From: Actinomycetota bacterium
GTDB taxonomy: Bacteria > Actinomycetota > Thermoleophilia > RBG-16-64-13
Reading direction: 5' to 3'
Assembly (NCBI GenBank): GCA_018830645.1
Contig: JAHJSA010000013.1
Span: 124,001-188,000, forward strand
DNA: 64,000 nucleotides
The translations under genes and the position numbers were made by a program. Positions 3,559-13,203 of this stretch are shown here, piece by piece. Numbering within the stretch: position 1 is the stretch's first letter; each line of letters begins with the position of its first letter. The notes beneath the pieces are model-generated. The model had not been told where the DNA came from. It searched no databases and saw only the letters and a program-made list of their open reading frames with translations.

Positions 3559-4233
3559 GTGGCGAGGATCAAGCGGCGCGAAGCGCTGTGGGTGGACAAG
3601 GGCAGGTTGGGATTCGAGGAAGCCAACCGGCTCCAACTCGAGCTGGCTGCGCGCCGACGTGTTGGTGAGATCCCCGACATAGCGATGCTGGTGGAGCACG
3701 ACCCGTGCTTCACGCTGGGCCGCGCAGCGAAGGCGGAGCACGTCCTCGTGGATGCCGACGGATTGGCCGCGGCGGGGATCGCCGTGCACAAGGCTGATCG
3801 CGGCGGCGACGTCACCTACCATGGGTGGGGTCAACTCGTGTGCTACGCGATCGTGGATCTCGCCGGGTATGGGCGGGATGTTCACGCTCACGCACGCCGT
3901 CTTGAGGAGATCATGATCCGCGCCGCCTGCGCGATCGGGGTGCCTGCGTACCGAGACCCTGACTATCCAGGGGTGTGGTGTTCTCAAGGCAAGCTCGGCG
4001 CGATCGGGCTCGGGGTGCGGCGTTGGGTGACCATGCACGGCGCTTCTCTCAACGTGAGCCCGTACATGCCGCACTACGATCTGATCGTGCCCTGCGGGAT
4101 CCACGGGCGGGCGGTGACCTCGCTCGAACGGGCTTCGGGCCGGACGATCACCCTGGAACAGGTGGGCCGGGAACTCAGACGGGCGTTCGGGGCGGTGTTC
4201 GAGACGGAACTGAAGAGCGAAAGGGGAGTGTGA
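3559..4233 (+). CDS. lipB: octanoyl-[acyl carrier protein]:protein octanoyltransferase LipB
   Basis: LipB moves octanoyl groups from acyl carrier protein to lipoyl domains, the first step of lipoate synthesis. The 224-residue protein has RGGDVTYHGWGQLV at 81-94, the catalytic lysine at about 145 (GKLGAIG) and the nucleophile Cys179 (VPCGI), with HGASLNV between them. GTG 3559 is chosen as start: it follows a purine-rich GGGGGACGAA and gives the usual family length, whereas the open frame reaching back to 3127 has no family similarity and overlaps the SDR gene. Lipoate is the cofactor of the dehydrogenase complex encoded divergently, a functional link. A lipA gene is not in the window. Confidence 0.92.
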   Translation: MARIKRREALWVDKGRLGFEEANRLQLELAARRRVGEIPDIAMLVEHDPCFTLGRAAKAEHVLVDADGLAAAGIAVHKADRGGDVTYHGWGQLVCYAIVDLAGYGRDVHAHARRLEEIMIRAACAIGVPAYRDPDYPGVWCSQGKLGAIGLGVRRWVTMHGASLNVSPYMPHYDLIVPCGIHGRAVTSLERASGRTITLEQVGRELRRAFGAVFETELKSERGV

Positions 4234-4235
4234 CC

Positions 4236-5426
4236 ATGACGCTGAAGGTGATGCTGGCTCCGGGCCGGTACGTTCAAGGACCCGGCGCTCTCGACCATAT
4301 GGGGGAACAACTGGAGATCCTTGGCCTCCGGAACCCTCTCATCCTCGTCTCGCCGAGCGCGAAGAAGGCCGTGGGAGCGGCTATCACGCGGAGCCTTGAG
4401 GCGAGGGGGCTCGCCCACGCCTTCGTGGACTTCGGGGGTGAGTGCACCCGCGTGGAGATCGAGCGGATCAAGAACGTCTGTATCCAGGGCGGACACGACG
4501 CGATCATCAACTGCGGGGGCGGCAAGGTCCTGGACGCGGGTCGGGCGGCCGCCACGAGATCGGCCTTGAACGTAGAGATGGTGCCGCCGGAGCACATCCC
4601 CGACCTCGGGGCGGGAGTCGCGTGCATCAACGTCCCCACCGTCGCGGCCAGTGACGCATCCACATCATCGGTATCCCTGGTCTACACGGACGACCACGTG
4701 GTTGAAGCCACCATGCTCTTCCCCTCCAGCCCGGCGATGGTCTTCGTGGACACTACCGTCATCGCCGCGTCTCCGGTGCGCCTCTTGGTGGCGGGCATGG
4801 GCGACGCCCTGGCCACCTACTTCGAGGCGGACATGTGCCTCCGCACCGGCTCACCGGCGGTAGTCACCCGCTCCCACAGCACACGCGCCGCACAAGCCCT
4901 CGCCCGGCTGTGCTTCGACCTACTGATGACCTACGGAGTCCAGGCCAAACGTGAGGCGGACGCGGGGGTGGCGGGTCCCGGCCTTGAAGCGGTCGTAGAG
5001 GCCAACATCCTTCTGAGCGGGCTCGGCTTCGAGAGTGGCGGCATCTCCGGCTCTCACGCGGTGGGCCACGGCTTCTACCACGTCGCTGAGTTCTTCGCCT
5101 CGCCCCGATACCACGGCGAAGTGGTGGCGTACGGCACGCTCACACAGTTGATGCTCGAAGGACGGCCGCCCGAGTTCCTCAAGACGGTGTTCGACTTCTG
5201 CCGCGCGGTAGGCCTTCCCACCACCCTCGAGGAGCTTACGCTCACCGACACCTCGGACGAGGTGATAGAGCGGGTGGCGCTCGCCGCGGCGCGCGACGTC
5301 GTGCTGATCAGTTCCATGGCCGGAGCGTCCTCGCAGCCCGACGAGCTCGGCAGGTACTACGACCACCGGGTCATCTTCAACGCGATCAAGGCGGTCGACG
5401 TCTTCGGCCGGGAGTACGGCGCCTGA
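4236..5426 (+). CDS. iron/zinc-dependent polyol dehydrogenase, glycerol dehydrogenase (GldA) family
   Basis: The 396-residue protein follows GldA along its whole length: PGRYVQG at 9-15, GGGK (94-97) in the NAD-binding part, and likely metal ligands Asp190 (GMGD), His274 (SHAVGHG) and His293 (RYHGE). Compared with E. coli GldA there is an insertion of roughly 15 residues around 112-127, before PTVAASDA. ATG 4236 lies 2 bp after the lipB stop with AAGGGGAG upstream, so the two genes form an operon. It should oxidise glycerol or a vicinal diol with NAD, or reduce the ketone. Together with neighbouring SDRs and an acetoin-type dehydrogenase, a butanediol/acetoin role is attractive but unproven. 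Confidence 0.87.
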   Translation: MTLKVMLAPGRYVQGPGALDHMGEQLEILGLRNPLILVSPSAKKAVGAAITRSLEARGLAHAFVDFGGECTRVEIERIKNVCIQGGHDAIINCGGGKVLDAGRAAATRSALNVEMVPPEHIPDLGAGVACINVPTVAASDASTSSVSLVYTDDHVVEATMLFPSSPAMVFVDTTVIAASPVRLLVAGMGDALATYFEADMCLRTGSPAVVTRSHSTRAAQALARLCFDLLMTYGVQAKREADAGVAGPGLEAVVEANILLSGLGFESGGISGSHAVGHGFYHVAEFFASPRYHGEVVAYGTLTQLMLEGRPPEFLKTVFDFCRAVGLPTTLEELTLTDTSDEVIERVALAAARDVVLISSMAGASSQPDELGRYYDHRVIFNAIKAVDVFGREYGA

Positions 5427-5472: not shown

Positions 5473-6237
5473 TCAAGCCATGTGCATACCGCCGTCGATC
5501 ATGTAGATCCCGCCGGTGCAGAAACCGCTCTCGTCGGAGGCGAGGAAGAGCATGAGTTCGGCTACCTCTTCCGGGGCGGCATAGCGCTTGAGAGGGATCC
5601 CATCCTGGATCAGCGCCTGAGCCCCCGCGGGGCGTTCAGGGCTGATCCCCTGCTCGAGCAGCCTGGTGAACGGGGTCTCGGTGGGCCCTGGGTTCACCGT
5701 GTTGACGCGGATCCCGGCCGCTGCGTACTCGACGGCGGCGACGCGCATGAGGCCGATGAGCGCGGTCTTGCTCACGCTGTAGGCGACGTTCCCCGGGTTG
5801 CCCATCATCCCCGTGACCGACGACGTGATGACGATGCTGCCCCCGCCCCGAGTCTTCATGTGAGGGACGGCGTACTTCAGCGTGAGGAACGCGCCGGTGA
5901 CGTTGACCTCGAGCACCTCGGCGAAGGTCTCATCCGGATAGGAGTCCAGCGCGGACGTCGTGCCCCACACGGCCGCGTTGGCCAGGACGATGTCGATGCC
6001 ACCGAAGCGTTCGGCTGCCGCGGCCATGGCGTCTTCTACCTCTTCCGGGCGGCGCACGTCGGCCGCGTACGGACTCGCCGCGTCGCCGATCGCGGCTGCG
6101 ACCCGGTCGGCTGCCGCCTCGTCTCGATCGACCACCAGGACGCTCGCTCCCTCGCCGGCGAAGCGCTTTGCCGCCGCCAAGCCGATTCCCGAACCCGCTC
6201 CCGTAATCACTGCCACCTTGTCGGTCAGTCTGCCCAT
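5473..6237 (-). CDS. short-chain dehydrogenase/reductase
   Basis: This 254-residue SDR has GAGSGIG at 13-19, NAA at 87-89, Tyr153 and Lys157 (YSVSK), and a C-terminal MIDGGMHMA. ATG 6237 has GAGGGGGAC directly upstream. It converges on the glycerol-dehydrogenase-like gene and diverges from the sensor kinase at 6345, so it seems to be transcribed alone. Its substrate is not evident. The 46 bp behind it hold a self-complementary CCGGGCGCCCGG (5443-5454) and short repeats of CCTGACG, which may act as a shared terminator. Confidence 0.87.
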   Translation of the reverse strand: MGRLTDKVAVITGAGSGIGLAAAKRFAGEGASVLVVDRDEAAADRVAAAIGDAASPYAADVRRPEEVEDAMAAAAERFGGIDIVLANAAVWGTTSALDSYPDETFAEVLEVNVTGAFLTLKYAVPHMKTRGGGSIVITSSVTGMMGNPGNVAYSVSKTALIGLMRVAAVEYAAAGIRVNTVNPGPTETPFTRLLEQGISPERPAGAQALIQDGIPLKRYAAPEEVAELMLFLASDESGFCTGGIYMIDGGMHMA

Positions 6238-6344
6238 GTCCCCCTCTTGGGTCCGCGTCTTGTGCGCCCGCGCCTCGGGTGTCCCGCCCTGTCGCCGGGC
6301 ACGTCCGATTCCAGATGCTACTCTACAGAGGTCCGTGGCGACAG

Positions 6345-9071
6345 ATGACGGGTGACCGGGGGGCGCTTGTGGGTCGATACCTCGAAGTAGGTTCTGCCGC
6401 CGCTTCGGGCACCGATGCGGCGACGGTCGCGGCCCAAGCGGCTCAACTCTGCATGAGCCGGCTCCGGGTCTTCCGGCCTTCTCTCGTGACCGTGTTCGCA
6501 TCTGCTCGGTTCGACCCGGAAGCGGTCGCGAGCGGCGTGGCTGCTGTCGTGGGTGACTACCCGATGATCGGTGCGTCCAGCGCCGGCGAGATCTGCGGCG
6601 CCCCCCTCGCGGACTCGATCGTGGTGAGCATCCTCGCGTCTCCACACCTGAGCGCGGAAGTGGGAGTGGGCGAGGGCGTCTCGGGCGATTGGCAGGCGGC
6701 GACGCGGGCCGCGCTTCCCCGGGGTCGATCAGCCGCGTACTTCCGCGATGGGCCGAAGGTCGGCCGACCGTTCTACTTCGCACACCCCGCCTCCGGGCTC
6801 TCGCCGCTGTTCGTGATGCTCTTCTCGCCGGGCAAGACGCTCGACCAGCCTTCGCTCGGCCACGAGATCCAGGGGTTCCTGAAACGCGGCACACTCGGGC
6901 GAGTGCCCATCGTGGGCGGGAACTCGAGCACGCCCGACCTTGCCGTGAGCAACTTCCAGATCGCTAACGGCCAGGCCTACCGCGATGCCGTCGTCTTGGC
7001 CGTGGTGGAGTCCGATCTCTTGTTCGGGGTGGGAGTCGCTCATGGGTTCAGGCCGACGAAGCGGCGCGCTGTGGTCACCCGCGCGGAGGGCCATGTGGTG
7101 CACGAGATCGACGATCGGCCCGCCGCCGACGTCTGCGCCGACCTGATGGGAGTGGATTCCATCGGAGTCGACGACCAGAGCACCGATTTCTCGCGCACGC
7201 CCTTCGGCGCCGCCGACGTCTACGGCGAGCATCACCTTCTCGTTCTCGAGAGAGCCCTGGGAGACGGCTCCGTTCAGTTCGGCCCGAACATGCAGGGCAT
7301 GCAGGCCATCACCGTGATGGAGATGGACCTGGAGAAGCAGCAGTCGGCGGCCTCCGACGCCGTCTCAAAAGCCATCGACATCGGTCACGTGCGGGACCCG
7401 GCGGCGGTGTTCCTGTTCGCATGCTCGCTGTTGTTCGGCAACAACGAGCGGGAACCTCGGGTCGATGAGCGGTTCCTGCGCCGAGTCACGGGTGGAGCCG
7501 CGGTCGCCGGCTTTCAGACGGCCGGGGAGTACGGTCTGAGCGACGAGGGCCTGCCCATCTACTGCAATCAGTCGGTCGTCGCCTTGGTGATCGGCGACAA
7601 ACTCGATCCCCTGGCGGCGGCGACGCGTCGCAACGCGAACGCCCTCAAGGAGATAGAAGCCGAGCTGGAGGGGCGCACCCGGGAGCTGGCGGCCGTACGA
7701 GCTGCCAACGCGATTGTGCTGGACAAGGACAACTGGCCCGACCGCCTCGGTCGCTACGAGCGCATCATCGGCGAGCTGACGGGCGCGTCGCGTGCGCGGT
7801 TCCACGTTGATGTGATGGGAGCCACCGGCCGCGAACGGCTCGCGACTCCCCCGCGGGGCCGCGCCGGCAGCTCCGTGCTACCCCTCATGAGCATGGGGCG
7901 GCCCCTGGGCTTCTTGGAACTCGAGGCCGGCGAGCCTCTGCTCAGTATGGAGGTGGCGGCCAGCATCTGCGACCTGGTGGCCCGTGCGGTCCACCGGGTC
8001 ATCATGGAGCGCACCATCGAGGAACAGGCACGCGAGATCGAGACGGTGAATGTGATCGCCCGGGAGATCGTCACTGCAGACGACAACCGCGCGGCGTTGA
8101 CCAACATCGCCACCGTCATCGAACGGCACATGGGCGCCCACGGCTTCTCGCTGTGGTTGAACGGGGAAGCCCCCGAGCTAGTGGGTAGGGACGGTGGGGC
8201 GGAAGAACTCGTGATCGAGGCCCGGCTCGCGGCCCGCGCAATGGAGTCTCGGGTGATCGAGCGGAGCGTCGACGTCGACGCAGTACGGATCGTCGCCCCA
8301 GTACGGATCGTCGCCCCCCTGCTCCTCAAAGACCGGGCCAACGGTGCGCTGGTATTGAGATTCGCAACGGACGCCGTTCCCCGGGGCATGGCATTCTTGA
8401 ACTACCTCTCGATGCCCCTTGCCGTCATGGCCGAGATGTACGTGCGGTATCGTGAATCCAACGTGGCCCGCGAGATGCACCATCGGGTGAAGAACAACCT
8501 GCAGATCATTGCCAGTCTGCTGAATCTGCAGCTGCGTCGCTTGGGCGACCCGTCGGCCAAGGAGGCTCTCGAGAGTAGTATTCGGCGTATTCTGAGCATC
8601 GCCGTCGTCCATGAGGTGCTTTCGGAGAGGCATTCTGGGTTGGTCGATCCGGTGTCCATCGTGCAGAACGTGTCCGATTTCGTGCTCCGGGCGATGTCCG
8701 GGCCGAATCAAGAGATAGCGGTGTCCGTCGAGGGTCAACCGGGCCTCGCGTTGAACTCACAACAAGCCACGAACGTGGCGGTCGTGGTGAGCGAACTCCT
8801 GGGGAACGCGCTCAAGCATGGATTCCGAGACCGCACCGAGGGCACGATCACGGTCCGCTTGGGTCAGGAGAACGGAGCGGTTACGCTTGTCGTGAGAGAC
8901 GACGGCGACGGCCCTCCCGTGGGCTTCGATCTCGCACGTGACCAAGGTCTCGGGCTGCAACTCATCGGGACTATCGTCGGGGGTGAGCTTCGTGGGAACT
9001 TCGCCGTGTGCCGGGCGGAACCCGGAATGGAAGCCCGGATCACCTTCCCTGGGGACCCGGTGCAAGTCTAG
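6345..9071 (+). CDS. FIST-domain sensor histidine kinase of the HisKA_2 type
   Basis: This is a roughly 908-residue kinase. Residues about 25-400 match the FIST_N and FIST_C sensor domains, which are thought to bind small ligands such as amino acids. A coiled coil follows, then two GAF-like domains (about 465-560 and 575-690), the dimerisation/phosphoacceptor helix with HHRVKNNLQ (His712 the likely phosphorylation site), and an HATPase_c domain with NALKHGF and DDGDGPP. It has no membrane segment, so it should act in the cytosol. The ANTAR regulator gene starts at the next base after its stop. ATG 6345 is the first start near the FIST domain, but upstream in-frame starts at 6279 and 6315 are possible. 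A perfect 18-bp tandem duplication encodes two copies of VRIVAP near residue 650. Confidence 0.88.
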   Translation: MTGDRGALVGRYLEVGSAAASGTDAATVAAQAAQLCMSRLRVFRPSLVTVFASARFDPEAVASGVAAVVGDYPMIGASSAGEICGAPLADSIVVSILASPHLSAEVGVGEGVSGDWQAATRAALPRGRSAAYFRDGPKVGRPFYFAHPASGLSPLFVMLFSPGKTLDQPSLGHEIQGFLKRGTLGRVPIVGGNSSTPDLAVSNFQIANGQAYRDAVVLAVVESDLLFGVGVAHGFRPTKRRAVVTRAEGHVVHEIDDRPAADVCADLMGVDSIGVDDQSTDFSRTPFGAADVYGEHHLLVLERALGDGSVQFGPNMQGMQAITVMEMDLEKQQSAASDAVSKAIDIGHVRDPAAVFLFACSLLFGNNEREPRVDERFLRRVTGGAAVAGFQTAGEYGLSDEGLPIYCNQSVVALVIGDKLDPLAAATRRNANALKEIEAELEGRTRELAAVRAANAIVLDKDNWPDRLGRYERIIGELTGASRARFHVDVMGATGRERLATPPRGRAGSSVLPLMSMGRPLGFLELEAGEPLLSMEVAASICDLVARAVHRVIMERTIEEQAREIETVNVIAREIVTADDNRAALTNIATVIERHMGAHGFSLWLNGEAPELVGRDGGAEELVIEARLAARAMESRVIERSVDVDAVRIVAPVRIVAPLLLKDRANGALVLRFATDAVPRGMAFLNYLSMPLAVMAEMYVRYRESNVAREMHHRVKNNLQIIASLLNLQLRRLGDPSAKEALESSIRRILSIAVVHEVLSERHSGLVDPVSIVQNVSDFVLRAMSGPNQEIAVSVEGQPGLALNSQQATNVAVVVSELLGNALKHGFRDRTEGTITVRLGQENGAVTLVVRDDGDGPPVGFDLARDQGLGLQLIGTIVGGELRGNFAVCRAEPGMEARITFPGDPVQV

Positions 9072-9671
9072 GTGGACGGTCAGGTGCAGATGCTGCGGAT
9101 CTTGATAGCCGACGACGAATCCATCATCCGCATGGATCTTCGCGAGATGCTCGAAGGCCTGGGGCACGAGGTGGTGGGCGAAGCCGGCGACGGCGACGAG
9201 GCCGTGCGTCTGGCGCGCAGCCTCGATCCCGACCTCGTCTTCCTTGACGTCAAGATGCCCCGTACGGATGGACTCGAGGCGCTACGTCTCATGAACTGTG
9301 AGCGGATCCGACCCGTGGTGATCCTCACGGCTTTCAGCGAGAGGTCCGTCATTGAACGGGCGATCGAACTCGGGGCGAAAGCCTACCTCGTGAAGCCGTT
9401 CGATTCGATCAACCTGCTGCCCGCCCTACACCTGGCGATGGCCCATTCCGCGGAGCTGCGCACGTTGCGCGACGAGAATGAGTCGCTCAAGGAGACCATC
9501 CGCGCCAGCAAGCTGGTCAATCGCGCGAAAGCCCTGCTCGCGGCGCATGAAGGGCTGAGTGAGGCGGAGGCGTTCAGGCGTATCCAGAAGCTCAGCATGG
9601 ACAAGAACAAGAAGATGGCGGACATCGCAGAGGCGGTGATCACGTTGCTCGCGAAGACCCCGGCTTCGTAG
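9072..9671 (+). CDS. ANTAR-domain response regulator (PdtaR/EutV-like)
   Basis: The 199-residue protein has a receiver domain with acidic residues Asp14-Asp15, phosphoacceptor Asp59 (FLDVKMP) and a late Lys in YLVKPFD. A helix of about 20 residues precedes a C-terminal ANTAR domain (about 140-192) with the family's AKALLAAHEGLSEAEAF and KKMADIAEAVI. ANTAR proteins bind paired hairpins in mRNA leaders and prevent termination. The GTG start directly abuts the kinase stop codon, so the two proteins form a cognate pair, the kinase probably phosphorylating Asp59. The next operon has a leader with suitable paired hairpins at 9757-9810, the likely target. Confidence 0.92.
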   Translation: MDGQVQMLRILIADDESIIRMDLREMLEGLGHEVVGEAGDGDEAVRLARSLDPDLVFLDVKMPRTDGLEALRLMNCERIRPVVILTAFSERSVIERAIELGAKAYLVKPFDSINLLPALHLAMAHSAELRTLRDENESLKETIRASKLVNRAKALLAAHEGLSEAEAFRRIQKLSMDKNKKMADIAEAVITLLAKTPAS

Positions 9672-9720: not shown

Positions 9721-9749
9721 TTGACACCCTCCATGGCGGGTTGTATCGT
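9721..9749 (+). promoter_or_regulatory. sigma-70-type promoter of the aldehyde oxidoreductase operon
   Basis: A perfect -35 TTGACA (9721-9726) and a -10 TATCGT (9744-9749) are separated by 17 bp. Transcription should start near 9756, just before the first leader hairpin. This is one of the two best promoter matches in the window. Confidence 0.7.
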
Positions 9750-9756
9750 CTATCGC

Positions 9757-9795
9757 GGAAGTGAAGGCGCTTCCCGACGCGGAGATGGAGCCGCG
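9757..9795 (+). promoter_or_regulatory. tandem hairpins, candidate ANTAR antiterminator RNA
   Basis: Two adjacent hairpins begin at the expected transcript start. Hairpin 1 (9757-9774) pairs GGAAGT with GCTTCC around GAAGGC. Hairpin 2 (9778-9795) pairs CGCGG with CCGCG around AGATGGAG, closed by an A-G mismatch if the loop is read as GATGGA. The two 8-nt loop regions fit one pattern, NGANGGNG, and the linker is 3 nt. ANTAR target RNAs are known as two small hairpins with hexanucleotide loops carrying conserved A1 and G4. Here position 4 is G in both loops, but position 1 is G, so the match is partial. The 3' arm of hairpin 1 is also the 5' arm of the terminator at 9767-9810. Confidence 0.6.
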
Positions 9796-9810
9796 CGGGG
9801 GGTGCTTTTT
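9767..9810 (+). terminator. leader terminator, mutually exclusive with antiterminator hairpin 1
   Basis: GCGCTTCCCG (9767-9776) pairs with CGGGGGGTGC (9796-9805), allowing three G-T pairs. Hairpin 2 stays nested inside, and five T residues follow (9806-9810). Bases 9769-9774 are needed both here and for hairpin 1, so only one of the two can form. This is the expected layout for attenuation relieved by an RNA-binding antiterminator. Confidence 0.65.
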
Positions 9811-9866
9811 CTGTTTGCCGAGACTGGTCGGGGCACTGGGTCAAGGGCACAAAGGGAGGGAGTCTC

Positions 9867-11741
9867 ATGTTGCAGGGGGGATACACTGGGAAGATCCTGC
9901 GGGTTGATCTTTCCCGCAAAGAGGCGCACACCGAGGAACTCTCTCCTGAGTTCGCGAAGGGCTATATCGGTGGCGCGGGATTCGGCATCAAGACGCTCTA
10001 TGATGAGGTGCCCGCGGGCGCGGATCCGCTGGGGCCGGACAACAAGCTCATCTTCGCATCGGGGCCGCTTTCGGGCAGCGACACACCCTGCGCCAGTCGG
10101 ATGGCCGTCACCTCCAAGAGCCCGCTGACGGGGGCTGTGGGCATGGCCACCACCGGAGGCTTCTTCCCAGCGGAGCTCAAGTTCGCGGGGTACGACGCCC
10201 TTATCGTGGAGGGCACAGCCGCCTCGCCCATGTACGTGACCATCAACGACGGCGACGTGCAGTTCAGGGACGCGGCGGGGTTGTGGGGCACGCACACGTC
10301 CGACTGTCAGCAGATGATCAAGGACTCGCTGAAAGACCAGGGATACCGGATCGCGTGTATCGGGCCGGCGGGCGAGAACCTGAGTCGCTTGGCGTGCATC
10401 ATCAACGAGCGCCGGGCCGCGGGCCGCAAAGGTTTGGGGGCCGTCATGGGCTCCAAGAACCTGAAGGCCATCGCTGTGCGCGGTCATGGGGAGATCGCGG
10501 TCGCCGACCCCGATGCCTACAAGACCGCCCGTTCCTCCTTCCGCGAACACATGCGGGAGAGTCCCGTCCTGTACTCTGCGTTCGCGAAGATCGGTACGCC
10601 GATGGTGGTGGATGTTCTGGGTGCCATGGGGATGCTGGCCGCCAAGAACTGGCAGGCTACGGGCGAGTTCGTCCCGGTGGACGAATTGGGCACCGAGGCA
10701 GGCAAGGCCGTCACCGTGGGCAGGAATCCGTGTCAGGGTTGTCCTGTCGCGTGTAGCCAGTTGAAGCTGGCCCGGAACGCGCCCTATACCGGCATCATGG
10801 CCGAGGGCCCCGAGTTCGAGAGTCTCTACTCCCTTGGCACTCAGTGCGGAGTGGACAACATGGACGCCATCATCGCCGCGGACCGTCTCTGCGACGAACT
10901 CGGCCTCGATACGATGTCCGCCGGCGTCACGATAGGCTTCGCCATGGAACTCTCCGAGCGGGGCGCGCTCTCCGCCATCGACAGCGGCGACCTCGACATC
11001 TCCTTCGGCAACGACCGCGCGATGATGGCGCTTCTCGAGAAGATGGCGTACAGGGACGGCATCGGCGACCTGCTGGCCGATGGGGTGAAGGAAGCCGCCG
11101 AGCGCATCGGCGGTGACGCGGCCTACTACGCGATGCACGTGAAGGGCCTCGAGTTGCCCGCCTATGACGTGCGTGGGGCGAAAGCCCACGGGCTGAACTA
11201 CGCCACCTCGTACACCGGAGCAGATCACAACCGCGGGTACGCCTTCCAGGAGATCTTCGGCATCCCGATACCCAAGGAAGTGGATCGCTTCGCCCTCGAG
11301 GGTAAGGGGGAGCTCTGCAAGTGGAATCAGGACATGCGCACGGCCACGTGCGATTGCCCGACCATGTGTGCCTTCCTCCTCGACATGGCGGTTCCCGCCG
11401 TCGCGGCCGAGAACGCCGCGGCGCTGCTCACCTCGCTCACCGGCGTCAGCTTCACGGCCGAGGAGGTGTTCCAGGTGGGCGAGCGCGTCAACAACCTCGC
11501 TCGAGCCTTCAACGCGCGTGAGGGGTTCTCGCGCAAGGACGACACGCTGCCCGACCGGCTCATGAACGAGCCCCTGCTCGTTGGTGGGTCCAAAGGGCAT
11601 CACATTCCCCAGGAGGACCTGGACCTCATGCTCGACGACTACTACACGGCCCGTGGCTGGGATGTGGCCACCGGCACGCCCACGCGGGCGAAGCTTGAGG
11701 AACTCGGGTTGGCCTCCGTCGCGGACGACCTGGGTGTGTAG
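9867..11741 (+). CDS. aldehyde:ferredoxin oxidoreductase (tungsten/molybdopterin enzyme)
   Basis: The 624-residue protein matches AOR-family enzymes over its full length. It opens with GGYTGKILRVDLS and has an N-terminal domain with FASGPLSG and GGFFPAELKFAGYDA. The [4Fe-4S] ligands are Cys289, Cys292 and Cys296 (CQGCPVAC), with a fourth probably at Cys497 or Cys501. The pterin-contact motif LGLDTMSAG lies at about 346-354 and YDVRGAKAHGL near 433. The enzyme oxidises aldehydes to acids with ferredoxin, or reduces acids when reductant is plentiful. AAAGGGAGGG precedes ATG 9867. A MoaD-like gene and an alcohol dehydrogenase follow in the same operon, which suggests an acid-aldehyde-alcohol conversion module. 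Confidence 0.93.
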   Translation: MLQGGYTGKILRVDLSRKEAHTEELSPEFAKGYIGGAGFGIKTLYDEVPAGADPLGPDNKLIFASGPLSGSDTPCASRMAVTSKSPLTGAVGMATTGGFFPAELKFAGYDALIVEGTAASPMYVTINDGDVQFRDAAGLWGTHTSDCQQMIKDSLKDQGYRIACIGPAGENLSRLACIINERRAAGRKGLGAVMGSKNLKAIAVRGHGEIAVADPDAYKTARSSFREHMRESPVLYSAFAKIGTPMVVDVLGAMGMLAAKNWQATGEFVPVDELGTEAGKAVTVGRNPCQGCPVACSQLKLARNAPYTGIMAEGPEFESLYSLGTQCGVDNMDAIIAADRLCDELGLDTMSAGVTIGFAMELSERGALSAIDSGDLDISFGNDRAMMALLEKMAYRDGIGDLLADGVKEAAERIGGDAAYYAMHVKGLELPAYDVRGAKAHGLNYATSYTGADHNRGYAFQEIFGIPIPKEVDRFALEGKGELCKWNQDMRTATCDCPTMCAFLLDMAVPAVAAENAAALLTSLTGVSFTAEEVFQVGERVNNLARAFNAREGFSRKDDTLPDRLMNEPLLVGGSKGHHIPQEDLDLMLDDYYTARGWDVATGTPTRAKLEELGLASVADDLGV

Positions 11742-11756: not shown

Positions 11757-12047
11757 GTGATGCGGATCACGGCGCGCACGGTCATGCACCTTGCGTCGCT
11801 TCTCGGAAGCCGGGAAGTCGAGTTGGAGCTGCCGGCGGGCAGTCGCGTGCTGGATGTGCTCGTGCGCATGGCCGATCTGATGGGAGACCAGGCGGTTCCG
11901 GCGCTTCTCCGGCCCGAGGACCGTAGGCCGCAGGGTCACCTGCGGATCATGCTGAACGGGCGGGACATCGGCGTCCTTGAGGGGGTAGAGACCGTCGTGC
12001 AGGATGGTGACGAAGTCCTGGTGGTACCGCCTGCCGGAGGAGGATAG
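11757..12047 (+). CDS. MoaD/ThiS-family sulfur carrier protein
   Basis: This 96-residue protein has the beta-grasp pattern of MoaD/ThiS (ELELPAGSRVLDVL, LNGRDI, DGDEVLVVPPAGGG) and ends in the diglycine needed for thiocarboxylation. It lies 15 bp behind the aldehyde oxidoreductase gene, the usual position of a carrier dedicated to that enzyme's tungstopterin or molybdopterin. Start is GTG 11757 or the next codon, ATG 11760. A MoaE partner is not encoded nearby. Confidence 0.85.
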   Translation: MMRITARTVMHLASLLGSREVELELPAGSRVLDVLVRMADLMGDQAVPALLRPEDRRPQGHLRIMLNGRDIGVLEGVETVVQDGDEVLVVPPAGGG

Positions 12048-12099: not shown

Positions 12100-13203
12100 A
12101 TGAAGACCATCGCCGCCGTCGTTCACGAAGCGGGCGGGCCGTTCTCGCTCGAAGACGTGGTCCTTGACGAGCCCCGCGCGGACGAAGTGCTGGTGCGGAT
12201 GGTGGCCACCGGCCTCTGCCACACCGATCTCTCGGTTCGAGCCGGCTATATCCCGTTCCCGCTCCCGGGCGTGATGGGGCATGAAGGCGCTGGGGTCGTG
12301 GAGGCGGTGGGTTCCGCGGTGAAGCGTGTCGCTCCTGGCGATCACGTGCTGGCCACCTTCACTTCGTGCGGGCAGTGCGCCAATTGCACGGGCGGCGAAC
12401 CGGCGTACTGTCACACGTTCATACCCTCGAATCTCATCGGCGGCACGCGTTCGGACGGCAGCTACACCATCCATCAGGGCGGCGCCCCCATCAACGCGCA
12501 CTTCTTCGGCCAGTCCACGCTGGCGCGGCATGCCCTGATCGATGAGCGGAGTCTGGTGAAGGTCGCCCACGACGCTCCTCTGGCGACGCTCGCACCCTTG
12601 GGTTGCGGCATCCAGACAGGTGTTGGGACGGTGCTCAACGTACTGTGCCCCGAGCCCGGTAGCTCTGTCGTGGTCTTCGGCGTCGGAGGGGTGGGGCTCG
12701 CGGCGATCATGGGGGCGGCCCTGACGGGCGCCGTTCAGATCATCGCGGTCGACGTGGTCCCCTCCCGTCTTGAACTCGCTCTGGAGTTGGGGGCCACTCA
12801 TGTCGTCGACGCGCGAGATGCCTCTGTGGTGGAGGCCGTGCGCGAGTTGAGCGCGGGGCAGGGTGTGAACTACACTATCGAGTGCACGGGCATCATCGAG
12901 GTCGCCGGCCAAGCGGTGCAGGTGCTCGCGCCGCTTGGAACGTGTGCTCTGGTGGGGGCCCCGCCGACGGGGTCGACCCTCCCGATAGATGTGCAGTTCA
13001 TGCTCGACGGCCGGCGCGTGGTGGGCGTCACCGAGGGAGCGAGCACGCCGGAGTCCTTCATCCCCGCGCTCGTAGATCTGCACGGGCAAGGCAAGCTGCC
13101 GCTCGAGCGCCTGATCCGCTGCTATCCGTTCGAAGACATCGAGCAGGCCGCGGCGGATGCCTCTTCGGGCGCGACCATCAAGCCGGTCCTGGTATTCGAT
13201 TGA
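12100..13203 (+). CDS. zinc-dependent alcohol dehydrogenase (medium-chain family)
   Basis: The 367-residue enzyme has catalytic zinc ligands Cys40, His61 (GHEGAG) and Cys169, structural zinc cysteines 90, 93, 96 and 104, and the NAD-binding GVGGVG near 200. The pattern PLGCGIQTG is typical of aryl- or long-chain alcohol dehydrogenases. ATG 12100 follows GGAGGAGA. It closes the operon after AOR and the MoaD-like gene and would interconvert the aldehyde handled by AOR with its alcohol using NAD(H). Confidence 0.9.
   Translation: MKTIAAVVHEAGGPFSLEDVVLDEPRADEVLVRMVATGLCHTDLSVRAGYIPFPLPGVMGHEGAGVVEAVGSAVKRVAPGDHVLATFTSCGQCANCTGGEPAYCHTFIPSNLIGGTRSDGSYTIHQGGAPINAHFFGQSTLARHALIDERSLVKVAHDAPLATLAPLGCGIQTGVGTVLNVLCPEPGSSVVVFGVGGVGLAAIMGAALTGAVQIIAVDVVPSRLELALELGATHVVDARDASVVEAVRELSAGQGVNYTIECTGIIEVAGQAVQVLAPLGTCALVGAPPTGSTLPIDVQFMLDGRRVVGVTEGASTPESFIPALVDLHGQGKLPLERLIRCYPFEDIEQAAADASSGATIKPVLVFD

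Follow-up and report, generated by a model that had tools for sequence, protein, structure and literature searches.

A probable ANTAR-type attenuator in front of an aldehyde:ferredoxin oxidoreductase operon in Thermoleophilia

Introduction

What is the role of the short stretch of DNA that separates an ANTAR regulator gene from an aldehyde:ferredoxin oxidoreductase (AOR) gene? In the window analysed here, 64,000 nt of a contig from an actinobacterium of the class Thermoleophilia, this spacer carries a promoter, small hairpins and a terminator. The leader (9757-9810) probably attenuates transcription of the AOR-MoaD-ADH operon in the ANTAR manner, through predicted binding of the regulator. Since related bacteria show this arrangement too, we think it very probable that the switch is genuine and of a described type, its target being a gene not associated with that type before.

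Results

A FIST kinase and an ANTAR regulator precede the AOR operon

The genes on either side of the leader are the following:

6474-9071, plus strand: FIST-domain cytoplasmic histidine kinase, proposed sensor (Pfam FIST_N, FIST_C, HisKA_2, HATPase)
9072-9671, plus strand: REC-ANTAR response regulator, proposed RNA-binding antiterminator (Pfam PF03861, 68.1 bits; PF00072, 93.8 bits)
9867-11741, plus strand: aldehyde:ferredoxin oxidoreductase, AOR family (PF02730, PF01314)
11757-12047, plus strand: MoaD/SAMP-like (ThiS/MoaD-like) small protein (PF02597; NF041918 and TIGR01687 below cut-off)
12100-13203, plus strand: zinc-dependent alcohol dehydrogenase (PF08240, PF00107)

The kinase combines HisKA_2 (72.6 bits) with HATPase, and its gene adjoins that of the REC-ANTAR regulator, as in EutW/EutV-type pairs. 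Its FIST part (window 6474-7700) resembles NosP, a nitric-oxide sensor, weakly (NF041558; 59.7 bits against a cut-off of 450, E 2.6e-16). The regulator is the one ANTAR protein in the genome; its receiver and ANTAR domains both score over their cut-offs, and it aligns over its full length to EutV (6wsh) and Rv1626 (1s8n). Among the RNA-contact residues of EutV, read by hand from the alignment, Met172, Lys143, Lys149 and Glu160 are kept, Tyr164 is replaced by Phe, and Arg142, Arg168 and Arg175 are changed.

The leader can adopt two mutually exclusive structures

Between the stop of the ANTAR gene (9671) and the ATG of the AOR gene (9867) lie these elements:

9721-9749, plus strand: promoter TTGACA-17-TATCGT (TTGACA 9721-9726, TATCGT 9744-9749), hexamers identical in the sister species G001
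9735-9750, plus strand: possible upstream hairpin GGCGG[GUUGUA]UCGUC, -3.5 kcal/mol, in read-through transcripts only
9757-9774, plus strand: hairpin 1, the switching hairpin, GGAAGU[GAAGGC]GCUUCC, hexaloop 9763-9768 with G4 at 9766
9778-9795, plus strand: hairpin 2, CGCGG[AGAUGGAG]CCGCG, loop AGAUGGAG at 9783-9790, doubling as terminator apex
9763-9810, plus strand: intrinsic terminator, stem ~9763-9805 followed by the U tract TTTTT (9806-9810)

As the initial annotation had described, the spacer holds the promoter, a pair of neighbouring hairpins and a terminator that cannot form together with hairpin 1. Transcription is expected to start near 9756, which would place hairpin 1 at the extreme 5' end of the RNA; within 10.5 kb no other promoter-like site occurs, and chance alone would be expected to give one. 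The terminator is hairpin 2 extended by the loop and 3' arm of hairpin 1, paired against CGGGGGGUGC and followed by TTTTT. Hairpin 2 is compatible with this structure. Hairpin 1 is not, since its loop and 3' arm are also used by the terminator, as 5' arm. The folding energy of the leader is -38.4 kcal/mol, a value that 1 of 200 dinucleotide shuffles equalled (z = -3.25). In prefixes of increasing length hairpin 1 is predicted to form first, then both hairpins, with rearrangement to the terminator once the G-run has been made. A search of the leader against Rfam gave no family at gathering score; with the limit relaxed to E 5, the one match, to a CRISPR repeat, was spurious.

The hairpins are small and adjacent, with a linker of 3 nt, as is asked of ANTAR-target RNAs. 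In hairpin 1 the hexaloop GAAGGC is closed by U.G and may tighten to AAGG. The loop of hairpin 2 is strictly 8 nt long, and reading it as a hexaloop needs an A.G closing mismatch. A caution raised from the outset, that neither loop has the consensus A at position 1, is borne out: this base is G in both hairpins, and likewise in G001 and in G007, a genome of another genus. The loops nevertheless retain G at position 4 (9766 and 9787), which is kept in both relatives too, and in hexaloop numbering each reads G1-A2-N3-G4, A1 alone being missing. The loop of hairpin 2 also contains an ATG (9785-9787), from which a short frame overlaps the AOR start out of frame; it is open in G001 as well, and no ribosome-binding site was seen.

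The leader is conserved in a sister species

G001, an Actinomycetes MAG (record JAGXFW010000020.1), has the same gene set in the same order, with protein identities of 89-90% for the FIST kinase, 91% for the ANTAR regulator and 95% for AOR. The -35 element, the -10 element and hairpin 1 are identical (100%) to those of the window; the terminator is kept, one U-G pair having become U-A and the T tract being longer, and hairpin 2 has a 4-bp stem and the loop AGAUGAAG where the window has AGAUGGAG. What looked like a symmetric base-pair loss in this hairpin was dropped as a candidate, since only the C has been deleted; the base opposite it is substituted, and an A.C mismatch results. Conservation of hairpin 1 and its loop bases in relatives, on which the initial annotation had staked its proposal, is thus complete in G001, and the loop GAAGGC recurs in G007. 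The exact leader is shared by 2 species only, those of the window and G001.

The two loci also differ upstream of the kinase. The window carries a short-chain dehydrogenase gene on the minus strand (~5473-6246) between the Fe-ADH and FIST kinase genes, and the corresponding gap in G001 is only ~400 bp, so that this gene was probably inserted or lost recently.

A related element precedes an AOR gene in another genus

Descriptor R1, consisting of two hairpins with NGANGRNG loops and otherwise random stem bases, was built from the window and G001 only, with the G007 locus unseen. On the AOR loci of relatives, its best match besides these two was the leader of the G007 AOR gene (L150; 21.3 bits, E 0.0038 over 80 kb, the E-values being rough because R1-R3 are hand-made with randomised stems).

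The G007 operon runs MoaD-AOR-MoaD-FIST behind a TTGACG-17-TAGCCT promoter. Its leader comprises P1, CAGCCC[GAAGGC]GGGCUG, then 4 nt, then P2, GGGAGC[GAAGGC]GCUUUC, and then a terminator with P2 as its 5' arm. In a three-way alignment, hairpin 1 of the window is the homolog of G007 P2, and the window shows a gap where G007 has P1. The G007 AOR is a distant paralog (~40%), and the FIST gene is 45-48% identical over the FIST part. The contig ends within this gene, short of the kinase domain and of any ANTAR gene beyond it; a search of G007 for ANTAR proteins found none. A third hairpin in L150, TTGC[GACGGC]GCAA, is single and lies upstream of the likely promoter; it was not used.

The element accompanies the FIST gene

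Strong relatives of the FIST kinase occur in only three of 399 genomes of the class (G000, G001 and G007), and the leader is present in 3/3. The NGANGRNG octaloop pair, with stems of at least 4 bp, is found at 3 loci in 1.39 Mb on both strands, namely the window, its G001 ortholog and the G007 AOR leader; the first two served to choose the motif, so that the third alone counts as independent. It is absent from 40 upstream regions of other AOR genes (six genomes), none of which has a comparably strong terminator in place, unlike the three leaders; in L191 a hairpin of -31 kcal/mol lies 459 nt upstream of AOR. The canonical A1/G4 dual-hexaloop descriptor gave nothing significant in G000/G001 (E above 5) or before the 40 AOR genes. 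Second-best matches to the GANG descriptor in the two sister genomes lay inside the dnaE coding sequence and were dropped. In their first step the genome scans scored only 150 or 16 candidates per genome, so that further targets may have been missed.

In G005, the Fe-ADH, AOR, MoaD and ADH genes adjoin without kinase, ANTAR gene or leader. The regulator and leader therefore appear to have been gained or lost as a block, through insertion into a metabolic cluster or removal from one. The Fe-ADH gene of G005 stands immediately before AOR (L153, 5481-8594; compare window 4227-5426), and in the window the kinase, the regulator and the attenuator stand between the two.

Loops with G at position 1 occur in glnA leaders of a sister family

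The refined descriptor R3 was run class-wide. Besides the AOR leaders its matches lay nearly all in long open frames, as at chance level, with the exception of a glutamine synthetase leader in G206 (L230, 1501-1565). At the glnA loci sampled from f4, the sister family that includes G206 (L231-L260), a dual hairpin and a terminator stand at the same place in 30/30. P2 reads GAGGC[RANGNN]GCCUC, with A1 in 23 leaders and G1 in 7, and with A2 and G4 in all 30; the P1 loop has G1 in at least 24/28 and G4 in 26/28. Both-side changes occur at 7/8 pairs of P1 and at 7/12 pairs of the competing terminator, while P2 itself hardly varies. Covariation over P1 and P2 is 0.257 compared with 0.108 in shuffled alignments, no shuffle being as high and slid versions reaching at most 0.086. 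On this covariation we regard the 30 leaders as putative ANTAR-type attenuators. The f4 genomes G040, G050 and G060 carry both these leaders and ANTAR proteins; REC-ANTAR proteins of the family are ~50% identical to the window's and in G040 and G060 are encoded within ~11 kb of glnA. Glutamine synthesis genes are among the predicted ANTAR targets (PMC3369931).

From the exchange of A1 and G1 in these leaders it follows that G1 loops are natural in ANTAR-type leaders of this class. The loops GAAGGC and GAUGGA of the window fit the pattern R-A-N-G-R-N, and GAUGGA differs from the canonical-type AAUGGA of glnA P2 at position 1 only. EutV targets are impaired when A1 is mutated to U (PMC3369931); in the structure of EutV with RNA, A1 is not specifically contacted (PMC8934654). 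The G1 in both window loops stands as an observation, but the worry attached to it is largely removed by its presence in 7/30 glnA P2 and most P1 loops.

Discussion

How might the switch work? By default, the nascent RNA would fold into the intrinsic terminator, and transcription would stop before AOR. Stimulation of the cytoplasmic FIST kinase would lead to phosphorylation of the neighbouring REC-ANTAR regulator, which may then dimerise and hold hairpin 1 by its GAAGGC loop, probably together with hairpin 2. With hairpin 1 held, the 5' arm of the terminator would be sequestered, allowing polymerase to read into the genes for AOR, the MoaD-like protein and the alcohol dehydrogenase.

That the neighbouring ANTAR protein acts on this leader, as proposed in the initial annotation, is supported by the conservation of the element, its recurrence in G007 and the fact that the genome encodes no other ANTAR protein. 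Less secure is that hairpins 1 and 2 act as the pair, since in G007 the partner lies upstream. The partner of hairpin 1 may be hairpin 2, the upstream hairpin at 9735-9750, or none, the last being an option because work on EutV and its RNA reduced the minimal motif to one hexaloop (PMC8934654). Counting against an ANTAR-type attenuator are the G at loop position 1, the lack of a standard hexaloop in hairpin 2, the compatibility of that hairpin with the terminator, a hairpin order opposite to that in G007, glnA and eutP, the truncation of the G007 locus, and the presence of the exact leader in just two species. A bolder reading is that the attenuator has been rewired: a P2-like hairpin would now come first, at the transcription start, with the original P1 lost and a GANG motif gained by the terminator apex, so that the regulator would read the terminator-blocking loop and the terminator's own loop, and a FIST sensor, possibly NosP-like and responsive to heme or NO, would control aldehyde metabolism. 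We advance this fuller scenario tentatively, rating it somewhat below even.

Could the regulator instead read 9735-9750 (loop GUUGUA) together with hairpin 1, in the classical EutV order, on transcripts that read through from the kinase and regulator genes? The position and linker of 9735-9750 would match the order P1-P2 seen in glnA and G007, its loop has both G1 and G4, and its sequence is identical in G001. This hairpin, however, contains the -10 element, an overlap that makes it the less likely regulator-read element; it is also weak, with two G-U pairs, its loop lacks A2 and R5, and the three-way alignment leaves G007 P1 without a counterpart in the window. We hold this arrangement to be unlikely. 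Quite improbable, too, is that the hairpin is an ordinary terminator of the FIST-kinase/ANTAR operon, with AOR transcribed from elsewhere or by leaky, unregulated read-through. Its position, ~135 bp downstream of the ANTAR stop codon, would suit such a role, but the sole promoter-like site precedes it with hexamers conserved in G001, the G012 AOR ortholog has a TTGACA-17-TAGCGT promoter at the same place without any terminator, and the hairpin loops follow the ANTAR-type pattern. Moreover, the G007 element stands ahead of its AOR operon, in which the FIST gene comes last, and so cannot be that gene's terminator. Control of the attenuator by a Mo/W cofactor riboswitch or a leader peptide is very improbable: AOR depends on a pterin cofactor with tungsten or molybdenum, genes for enzymes with such cofactors are elsewhere preceded by Moco-type riboswitches and the ATG at 9785 opens a candidate frame, but no Rfam family matched, a start near 9756 would leave only ~10 nt ahead of the terminator stem, and the element tracks the FIST gene rather than AOR genes generally.

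The preferred reading, an ANTAR-type attenuator, has its closest described counterpart in the EutV/EutW system and eutP leader of Enterococcus faecalis (PMC3369931, PMC8934654). Both pair a HisKA-type kinase with a REC-ANTAR regulator, and both have, in the leader of a metabolic operon, small adjacent G4-loop hairpins exclusive with an intrinsic terminator. They differ in that the window loops have G1 and those of eutP A1, that the first hairpin of the window and the second of eutP overlaps the terminator base, and that a FIST-domain sensor and an AOR operon stand where EutV serves ethanolamine or other nitrogen genes. A further departure from EutV and NasR is that the second candidate hairpin coincides with the apex of the terminator. 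Actinobacterial ANTAR-target RNAs (PMC8164766) likewise have dual hairpins and a loose loop consensus, A1 and G4 being conserved in only >50%, but few of them sit on a terminator. The f4 glnA leaders share with the window the promoter, R-N-N-G-R-N loops (in P1 and P2), a terminator that overlaps one of the hairpins (P2) and REC-ANTAR homologs in their genomes; their target, in contrast, is nitrogen assimilation, their kinase lacks FIST, and they show the classical P1-P2 order. With the G007 leader the window has in common the GAAGGC loop, the GAAGGCGCUU-CCCGA terminator arm and a FIST gene and AOR in one operon, whereas G007 has two GAAGGC hairpins in EutV order and a terminator apex without the motif.

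The type of system is thus known; the AOR target, the FIST sensor, the G1 loops and the hairpin order are new. The main text of PMC8164766 mentions neither AOR nor aldehyde nor oxidoreductase, and that of the 2012 survey (PMC3369931) neither aldehyde nor oxidoreductase. We found no report of an ANTAR-AOR link in the literature searched, where papers combining the two word-starts seem from their titles to be on other subjects, ANTAR there probably arising from words such as Antarctic.

What does this mean for ANTAR regulation? Antitermination by these proteins has so far been tied mainly to nitrogen metabolism, and here a FIST-kinase/ANTAR pair would act on an AOR operon. Across the 30 glnA leaders A1 and G1 replace each other naturally and A2 and G4 never change; this loosens the loop consensus as published and should make overlooked targets in GC-rich actinobacteria easier to find. 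Finally, the layout seen in the window makes it possible to test directly if a single hexaloop is enough for an ANTAR protein to bind, as had been proposed from the EutV-RNA structure.
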